Of a stretch of 64,000 nt of DNA, positions 32,885-40,617 are shown piece by piece. Source of the stretch: Stappia sediminis (GTDB lineage Bacteria > Pseudomonadota > Alphaproteobacteria > Rhizobiales > Stappiaceae). Under the pieces are notes generated by a model. It was not told the origin of the DNA. It saw nothing but the letters and a program-made list of their open reading frames with translations, and did no database searches. Within the stretch, counting starts at the first letter, position 1. Each line of letters starts with the position of its first letter. The position numbers and the translations under genes were made by a program. The stretch covers positions 248,001 through 312,000 of the forward strand of contig NZ_WUMV01000006.1 of the NCBI RefSeq assembly GCF_009826895.1. The letters run 5' to 3'.

Positions 32885-32913
32885 GCGCGGGCAGATCCAG
32901 CCGTATTACGAAT

Positions 32914-32962
32914 GTCATCCCGGGCGCGGCGCAGCATGAAATGCTGCTCCGCAGAGCCGGGA
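32914..32962. repeat. CCCGGG-type intergenic hairpin downstream of merR
   Basis: Begins GTCATCCCGGGC and ends GCCGGGAC, with an inner perfect hairpin GCAGCAT-GAA-ATGCTGC (32931-32947). It belongs to the common alphaproteobacterial family of GTCATCCCGG palindromes seen also at 37362 and 40527. It probably ends or protects the merR transcript. No gene is visible in 32885-33202; the rest is the left arm of the element starting at 33050. Confidence 0.7.
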
Positions 32963-33049
32963 CCTCCCTCCGCACGCCCTGCCCTCTCTTTTTCCGTCCA
33001 CGCCGCCTGCCCCCGGCCTGTTCGGGGACGACCCACGCATAGACCGCGC

Positions 33050-33610
33050 GTCAGTGTATTTCCCTGAAATGAGCGGGCTTCGCCCGCAGCAGATGTCTGG
33101 GCCCCGGCTCTCGCGACGTGCGTTCCGCACACGCGGGCCGGGGTGACGTTCTTCGTTTAACTGGGCCTTGCAGCGAATTGCCATCTCTGATTGCAATTGG
33201 AGATGGTTGCTTACGTCTACATCCTCGCATCAGCTCGCAATGGAACTCTCTATGTGGGAGTGACTACCGATCTACCCCGAAGAATGTACGAACATTCGCA
33301 AGGGCTCCATGACGGCTTTACAAGGCAAAATAACGTCAAACGCCTTGTCTACGCGGAAGCCTTCTCGCAAATAGACGAGGCCATTGCGCACGAAAAACGA
33401 CTGAAAAAATGGAAGCGTTCGTGGAAGATCGAGCTGATCGAAAAGTCCAATCCCGAGTGGTTGGACCTCAACACGATATGACCTGAGCGACAGAGCTGAA
33501 TTCACGAAGAACGTCACCCCGGACAAGCGACGGCAAAGCCGAGCGCCGATCCGGGGCCCAGACATCTGTTGCGGGCGAAGCCCGCTCATGTCCTGAGGAA
33601 ATGTGCTGAC
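33050..33610. mobile_element. Candidate mobile unit: GIY-YIG gene inside ~107-bp imperfect inverted repeats
   Basis: The left arm 33050-33156 and right arm 33504-33610 are each 107 bp and are reverse complements in blocks. The outer block matches at 11 of 14 positions (GTCAGtgtATTTCC against GTCAGcacATTTCC). A middle block of 39 bp (33069-33107 against 33551-33589) has one mismatch. An inner block of 19 bp (33138-33156 against 33504-33522) is perfect. Unrelated spacers of 30 and 28 bp separate the last two. The only gene inside is the small GIY-YIG nuclease. I see no clear target-site duplication and no transposase. Confidence 0.6.
33203..33481 (+). CDS. GIY-YIG nuclease superfamily protein (UPF0213 type)
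   Basis: 92 aa, a bare GIY-YIG domain. YVY (4-6) and YVG (17-19) form the GIY-YIG pair, with Arg27, His31 and catalytic Glu64 in HEKRLKKWKR. Such domains cut DNA with a divalent metal. The ATG at 33203 matches the usual family start; an earlier TTG (33191) adds four residues. Its codons are visibly richer in A and T than the flanking genes, which fits transfer. It lies between long inverted repeats, so it may be the payload or agent of a small mobile unit. Confidence 0.88.
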   Translation: MVAYVYILASARNGTLYVGVTTDLPRRMYEHSQGLHDGFTRQNNVKRLVYAEAFSQIDEAIAHEKRLKKWKRSWKIELIEKSNPEWLDLNTI

Positions 33611-37338: not shown

Positions 37339-37361
37339 GGGCCGCGATCACGAAGGACCTC

Positions 37362-37402
37362 ATCCCGGACCAGTGAGGCGAAGCCGAACGCCGATCCGGG
37401 AT
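37362..37402. repeat. CCCGG-type intergenic hairpin between convergent genes
   Basis: ATCCCGGA (37362-37369) and TCCGGGAT (37395-37402) are perfect arms; the sequence between, with GGCGAAGCCGAACGCCG, is close to the right spacer of the GIY-YIG element at 33523-33550. It sits between two stops and may work as a two-way terminator. Confidence 0.7.
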
Positions 37403-37435
37403 CCAGCGCATCATTCGCGCGCAAGCGCGGCAATT

Positions 37436-40526: not shown

Positions 40527-40617
40527 CGTCATGCCCGAGCTTGACCCGGGCACCCAAGCCACTTCGAAGCTTTACTTCGATGTTCAATGGGTTGCCGGGT
40601 CGCGCCCGGCAATGACG
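40527..40617. repeat. Long CCCGG-type intergenic palindrome between choV and acetyltransferase
   Basis: CGTCATGCCCGAGCTTGACC at one end and GGGTCGCGCCCGGCAATGACG-like sequence at the other pair over about 90 bp, with an inner CTTCGAAG/CTTCGATG section. This is the full form of a palindrome common in alphaproteobacteria. It lies 40 bp after the choV stop on the same transcript, so it may end or stabilise the choXWV message. Confidence 0.75.

Follow-up and report, generated by a model that had tools for sequence, protein, structure and literature searches.

The window, by which we mean the whole 64,000-nucleotide stretch of DNA analyzed here, contains at 33050-33156 and 33504-33610 two inverted copies of one sequence (77% identity over a gapped 107-nt alignment), which enclose a single small gene (Table 1). 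The two arms are most similar in a 45-nt block (33066-33110 versus 33548-33592, 93% identity) and at their inner ends, where 19 of 19 nucleotides agree. A 22-mer from the arm core is matched twice in the window against an expectation of 0.02, and none of 100 shuffles reached two matches; the inverted 107-bp arms reported in the first-pass annotation are thus confirmed as more than a product of chance.

The ORF between the arms encodes a bare GIY-YIG domain (Pfam GIY-YIG, E=3.8e-17), which fills the entire length of the predicted protein; its most likely start is an ATG, and the ORF caller places it at a TTG. Residues Y6, Y17, G19, R27, E64 and N83, which we take to be the catalytic positions of the GIY-YIG fold, are among the columns that are invariant over a 23-row alignment that includes the window protein. 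Both the Pfam match and these conserved residues place the protein in the GIY-YIG nuclease superfamily, in keeping with the initial description of the only enclosed gene as a minimal nuclease with its key residues. The gene had also been described as more A+T-rich than its neighbors, and its composition bears this out: its GC content is 0.49 and its GC3 0.59, as against 0.61-0.66 and 0.81-0.85, respectively, in the two flanking genes.

Each of the arms contains a palindrome that begins with CGTCA, continues as a G+C stem and ends in CCA. These palindromes have the CGTC head, paired stem and CCA tail of CGTC REPs, and are recognized as such only under a definition that permits long loops. Their heads face the gene, which is a minority layout found in 9 of 72 two-sided loci, i.e. 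those with strict REPs within 250 bp on both sides.

Table 1. Positions of the gene, its arms and related palindromes in the window
Feature	Position	Strand	Basis
GIY-YIG nuclease gene, 92 aa from ATG (TTG 33191 possible)	33203..33481	+	Pfam; invariant residues of 23-row alignment
Left CGTC REP, CGTCACCCCGG...CCGGGGCCCA, CGTC head toward gene	33098..33148	-	REP scan
Right CGTC REP, outer stem as in left REP, loop differs, CGTC head toward gene	33512..33560	+	REP scan
Inner 19-nt end of left arm, ACGAAGAACGTC on opposite strand; outer end in two-armed dispersed copies	33138..33156	+	
Inner 19-nt end of right arm, identical to that of left arm	33504..33522	-	
Small GCGGGC stem-loop of left arm; central in two-armed dispersed copies too	33073..33087	.	
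Small stem-loop of right arm, as the GCGGGC one of left arm	33571..33585	.	
Outer 14-nt block of left arm, imperfect	33050..33063	.	
Outer 14-nt block of right arm, imperfect	33597..33610	.	
Single dispersed copy of right-arm REP type	37348..37406 (C15:285348-285406, converted)	-	own-genome search
CGTC REP, half 1 of heads-out dimer, 31-bp spacer	40527..40556	+	read directly
CGTC REP, half 2 of the dimer; 2 mismatches from REP of the genome's second GIY-YIG gene	40588..40617	-	
REP-like palindrome of a further type, 3' of MerR-like gene	32913..32964	+	read directly; type recurs in L006 flank and L015

REPs around related genes

A search with the window protein gave matches in 63 of 144 genomes of the class, a single genome having as many as 12. 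The class set studied here comprises 115 loci (six from the window's own genus); it leaves aside several fragments, short or broken, and several matches at the weak end of the list. It divides into 93 loci of type A, defined by a tblastn score of at least 70 bits against the window protein (three loci without a tblastn match were placed by their original search coordinates), and 22 more distant ones. The 300-bp flanks of the gene match each other in inverted orientation with a score of at least 20 in 37 of the 93 type A loci, as against one of 89 when the flanks are taken 500 bp farther out and 1.2% of 3000 flank pairs drawn from different loci. In the type A loci among the best 44 flank alignments most of the repeats are CGTC REPs, whose stem varies from locus to locus and is the same on both sides of a given gene. 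The density of strict REPs around the 93 type A genes is 4.46/kb within 100 bp, compared with 0.2/kb at 500-1000 bp. When longer loops are allowed, a REP lies within 100 bp of 53/93 type A genes (on both sides in 29/93) versus 4/94 control ORFs of the same loci (both sides 0/94), the controls being mechanically called ORFs of at least 120 aa; even under this looser definition no REP was detected within 100 bp of 40/93 type A genes.

A second, named set holds the 80 top-ranking loci among 577 confirmed candidates, a choice that biases it toward close relatives of the query. The titles of its records span Proteobacteria of several classes, Planctomycetota, Omnitrophota, Nitrospirae, Anaerolineae, Dehalococcoidales, Uhrbacteria, Kerfeldbacteria and others. 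As MAG is the label of 69 of the 80 records, binning may have made some of these phylum assignments wrong. A strict REP is found within 250 bp of the gene in 65/80 loci and on both sides in 42/80, at a density of 6.36/kb versus 0.08-0.15/kb beyond 500 bp. Inverted flank matches are seen in 37/76 loci in place, in 0/163 comparisons with shifted flanks and in 238/3000 comparisons between loci, the last figure arising because the REPs of different loci resemble each other. With longer loops allowed, the fraction with a REP within 100 bp rises to 73/80 (both sides 46/80), as against 31/274 control ORFs (both sides 1/274). The association across many taxa is thereby demonstrated at the level of sequence comparison. 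Absence of the arms around related genes, which the first-pass annotation had named as a finding that would count against it, is not what we observe, as CGTC REPs enclose relatives of the gene in many taxa.

This association extends to the internal organization of individual genomes. In 26 genomes with at least two type A genes, the left and right flanks of the same gene match in 44/71 cases, whereas between different GIY-YIG genes of one genome such a left-right match is seen in just 11/196 (the score being the better of both orientations), and none of 1000 within-genome permutations attained the observed mean flank score. The pairing of each gene with its own REP type inside genomes is demonstrated by this comparison. 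The arrangement of the REPs is likewise ordered: in 48 of the 72 two-sided loci the nearest REP on either side has its tail toward the gene. In these tails-inward loci the median distance from stop codon to REP is 5 bp in the named set and 11.5 bp in the class set, and that from REP to start is about 26 bp. Neighboring REP pairs away from any such gene display the tails-inward layout in 23/34 cases. As the layout at the gene matches that of the gene-less pairs, the gene mostly sits where a dimer would have its spacer. Alignable blocks that span no more than the gene and one or both of its REPs are found in differing surroundings, as at L205, L230 and L252 (76-82% identity).

At least three matches to one REP pattern are present in 31/46 genomes with a type A gene and 10/98 genomes without one (p=4.5e-12, ignoring phylogeny, with a single REP pattern and counts transcribed by hand), and 15/46 gene-bearing genomes have fewer than three matches to that one pattern. 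These ten genomes without a type A gene carry 3-47 REPs. A profile search of the ten (E<=0.001) gave matches in four, which in G029 are to a broken type A gene and in the other three are weaker GIY-YIG matches, and no GIY-YIG match in the other six, so overlooked partner genes fail as a full account of the REP-only genomes. The broken gene of G029 (L179) sits in a genome with 3 matches to the CGTC REP pattern and is possibly a relic of a lost partner.

The palindromes around the type A gene L112 (G006) begin with TGTCAT, have very long A+T-rich stems and end in ATCTT rather than CCA. In plasmid AZO_p3 of Azospirillum lipoferum (L303) a GIY-YIG gene, flanked left and right by REP dimers, lies in a suf gene cluster between sufB and sufC. 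Plasmid records with matches number 35, and several of the 15 listed are megaplasmids or chromosome-sized; the 12 matching phage records are all below 60% identity, with 33-40% in the ten listed. In view of the few and distant phage matches and the megaplasmid scale of several plasmids, carriage by phages or plasmids was set aside as the main story.

The 22 more distant GIY-YIG genes have no strict CGTC REP within 250 bp (0/22; two lie 1.5-2 kb away). A different palindrome, CCTGAG..TCGAAGG, is found within 300 bp of 11 of them, in eight cases on both sides, and none occurs farther than 300 bp out in those loci; around 173 type A genes it was seen once at 150-300 bp and not at all closer than 150 bp. 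All eleven of these loci (L124, L125, L129, L130, L132-L137 and L139) fall in a group that we term B1 (n=13), and the nine loci of a second group, B2, have neither the CGTC REP nor CCTGAG..TCGAAGG nearby. Some B1 genes seem to extend into the repeat, giving rise to C-termini like HPELVEG and SSFET..PQDD. In the tree, the A rows, including the window protein, lie on one side of a branch with a support of only 88/34, recovered in 85% of bootstrap trees; B2 is split off at 100/99 and B1 at 98/98, with the exception of the long-branch row L145, which goes with B1. B1 and B2 were named after their repeats were known, and further B1 loci were therefore sampled, with the tree and these six later loci serving as the check. 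Five of the six carry the CCTGAG..TCGAAGG repeat (L277-L279, L282 and L283); L280 was excluded from this sample as not B1, L283 comes from an already sampled genome, and the strand of the gene at L279 is ambiguous.

The tree also bears on the name of the window gene, which had been labeled UPF0213. We take B2, with its TYVGWT..RGR proteins, to be UPF0213 proper, and the label is not confirmed, since NCBIfam yields no match above the cut-off for the window protein and the latter stands apart from B2 in the tree. Its nearest solved relatives are two PDB chains named UPF0213 (E=3.8e-11 and 2.7e-8), and its kinship with UPF0213 is therefore beyond doubt.

Dispersed copies and the sister species

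When the right arm was searched against its own genome (4.79 Mb, 22 contigs), 41 places were recovered at E<=10, of which 20 reach E<0.01. The latter correspond to the two arms in the window and 16 further sites, after neighboring match pieces were merged by hand. Eight of the 16 are two-armed inverted dimers, a share from which decayed halves may have escaped detection; they are joined at GCGGGC/GCGCGC stem-loops with their CGTC ends outward, several also having ACGAAGAACGTC outward. The remaining sites are one-armed, and in at least one of them (L005) a decayed second half is apparent. Being dispersed through the genome, the arms are not the private ends of one element, and a transposon with private terminal repeats was accordingly rejected. 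The second GIY-YIG gene of this genome is flanked on both sides by a different REP (CGTCATTGCCGGGCTTGACCCGGCA), which occurs at 9 places with up to 3 mismatches, two at the gene and seven elsewhere, compared with none in a backward control. Lone palindromes of the window had earlier been likened to the arms. The one at 37348 is of the arm family, the one at 40527 belongs to a dimer whose second half is close to the second gene's REP, and the palindrome at 32913 represents a further type.

The nearest relative, G002, has about 90% DNA identity in the flanks of the window locus. It retains the two neighboring genes, and by visual inspection the place of the window gene holds other sequence and other CGTC REPs. 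Presence of the locus in the same place in all relatives had been named as another finding that would argue against mobility; the gene is absent from this place in G002, and descent as vertically inherited, ordinary intergenic DNA was rejected on this ground. A clean empty site for the gene was seen neither at the window site nor at those of the second gene or the G002 gene, as the relatives compared carry REPs or other sequence instead. The second gene has copies in the two congeners, 82% identical, whose surroundings cannot be aligned. At the site of the second GIY-YIG gene G002 has an unrelated ORF of about 320 aa (L265), and such intergenic sites resemble insertion hot spots.

Of 12 dispersed sites whose flanks were looked up in G002, 10 were compared, L014 giving no match and L012 a weak one that was left out. 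The copy is missing in G002 at four of the ten (L013, L006, L023 and L005), with 6-48 bp there instead; L006 is the least certain of these because its right boundary begins in a repeat. One copy (L022) is common to both genomes, and at five sites the gap is filled with non-aligning sequence. Among these five, the inspected site L015 has REP dimers in the window's genome versus a GIY-YIG gene with different REPs in G002 (L292/L035). The inserts at the missing-copy sites reach somewhat past the palindromes, and inspection of the four by eye revealed no consistent insert boundary or target duplication, in agreement with the lack of a target duplication in the first-pass annotation. Some dispersed copies are, on the alignment of the two genomes, insertion-polymorphic between the sister species. 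The proposal of a minimal mobile unit thus survives in part: blocks of gene plus REP recur in unrelated surroundings and some dispersed copies have empty sites, but the site of the gene itself in G002 holds other DNA and no target duplication was seen.

A candidate nuclease-REP unit and its rivals

We estimate a probability of roughly three in four for the reading of the locus as a nuclease-REP unit, with the GIY-YIG gene enclosed by cognate CGTC REPs and gene-less copies scattered elsewhere. As relatives in many bacteria tend to be enclosed by their own version of the repeat, the GIY-YIG enzyme is probably the partner that the CGTC REPs have lacked. On this reading, a minimal GIY-YIG endonuclease gene would sit between two copies of its cognate CGTC palindrome, from which the gene-less copies, about half of them recognizable inverted dimers, would derive. 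The enzyme may recognize the hairpin of its own REP, as the specificity of the gene-REP pairing suggests, probably in single-stranded form, and would then cut at or beside the CGTC end. We infer single-strand cutting from the hairpin shape of the repeats and from the Ssn family, reportedly a family of site-specific single-stranded nucleases described in Nature Communications in 2025, in which a GIY-YIG enzyme is said to be linked with a Neisseria repeat.

That the enzyme spreads the REPs is a further step, backed by the insertion polymorphism, to which we assign somewhat less than an even chance. By analogy with what is supposed for RAYTs and GTAG REPs, cutting coupled with strand repair or transfer could propagate the REPs and occasionally the gene, a scheme that we likewise offer tentatively. 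More broadly, and again with odds that fall a little short of even, GIY-YIG enzymes might constitute a second, RAYT-independent class that spreads REPs, with at least two sister clades, each linked to a repeat superfamily of its own (CGTC..CCA and CCTGAG..TCGAAGG), co-evolution of every gene with its REP, and a gene that travels as the filling of a dimer.

The strongest rival is a cognate nuclease without mobility, which would cut single-stranded DNA at REPs in the control of uptake or repair, or regulate itself via its flanking REPs, while the repeats spread by other means. Ssn in Neisseria is reportedly presented along these lines. A Neisseria gonorrhoeae relative of the window protein (53% identity), which is clade-A-like, has an adjoining palindrome: the DNA right past its stop codon translates as VIPAQAGI, corresponding to a GTCATTCCCGCGCAGGCGGGAAT-like palindrome, and three CGTC REPs lie within about 750 bp. 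Given this dRS3-like palindrome, Ssn likely belongs to the present GIY-YIG clade. In PMC3733652, the CGTC-1 family of Neisseria is equated with dRS3. The insertion-polymorphic dispersed copies fit spread by a partner enzyme, yet are compatible with this rival too; it has the recognition step in common with the nuclease-REP unit, and the odds of the two are not exclusive. We consider an immobile role possible but doubtful.

It is also conceivable, if unlikely, that the gene encodes a free-standing homing endonuclease that targets an empty REP dimer and enters its spacer by break repair. The usual position of the gene in the dimer spacer, with the REP so close past the stop in tails-inward loci, fits such a process, as does the orthologous site L015, with REP dimers in one species and a GIY-YIG gene plus REPs in the other. 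However, the REP types at that site differ between the species, G002 and G001 have different GIY-YIG genes near one site, and the arms in the window are head-in.

Passive landing, whereby small foreign genes gather in REP-rich intergenic hot spots that tolerate insertion, would account for syntenic sites in sister species that hold other sequence, some with REPs. The flanks matched to each gene, the tight spacing and orientation, and the clade-specific repeat classes are at odds with it, and the within-genome pairing in particular disfavors it, making it improbable. Ordinary intergenic inverted repeats or chance, for which we found nothing beyond the general commonness of hairpins, are contradicted by the loss of flank matches on shifting in both sets and can be practically dismissed.

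Comparison with known systems

The Ssn study is said to describe a repeated target sequence in the same genome as the enzyme, and many homologs with their own sequences, and to concern single-strand cutting and transformation. On this account, the two systems are alike in combining a GIY-YIG enzyme with a repeated sequence of the same genome, and they differ in that the REP-dimer anatomy, the insertion polymorphism and the second clade are additions made here. The parallel between a GIY-YIG enzyme and palindromes, put forward as new in the first-pass annotation, may thus have been partly anticipated. If the Ssn work covers this clade, the basic pairing is already published and the window locus is a new family member; the dimer structure of the REPs, the flank comparison between genes of one genome, the second clade and its repeat, and the sites with a missing copy would still be additions.

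Homing endonucleases of the I-TevI and I-BmoI type carry a GIY-YIG nuclease domain, which they share with the window protein. The latter differs in being only 92 aa long, with no intron recognized at its gene and with repeats on both sides.

CGTC REPs themselves have been surveyed by Di Nocera et al. 2013 (PMC3733652). According to that survey, they are mainly alphaproteobacterial, being found also in Neisseria, Rickettsia and other phyla; their loops measure 4-5 bp (Table 1 of that paper); and the CGTC-3 dimers of A. tumefaciens have two stem-loops in the spacer. These REPs share with the window arms the CGTC head, stem-loop, CCA tail, inverted dimers and spacer stem-loops, the loops in the window being longer than 4-5 bp. 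They stand in that survey as REPs without a dedicated transposase, none having been found, in contrast to the partner gene proposed here. No word beginning with GIY occurs in the text of PMC3733652, the terms GIY and nuclease are absent from PMC12306157, and a literature search of titles and abstracts retrieved none that links GIY-YIG with REPs. A partner gene beside its own repeats makes the question of the CGTC REP enzyme directly testable. Each such genome offers the enzyme together with its presumed substrate, and the gene-REP pairs form a natural series for studying how a 90-residue enzyme chooses its hairpin.

A further close counterpart is provided by RAYTs and their GTAG REPs (REPINs), a parallel drawn at the outset that is sustained by the enclosure of relatives in CGTC REPs across many taxa, with a REP type of its own for each gene. 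Both systems have a single enzyme gene flanked by its own REPs, as the window locus does, and gene-less dispersed inverted dimers. RAYT is a tyrosine (Y1/HUH) transposase that goes with GTAG REPs, whereas the window protein is no Y1 HUH transposase but a GIY-YIG enzyme that goes with CGTC REPs. By analogy, the design is that of the RAYT-REP system, with another enzyme fold and another class of REP.
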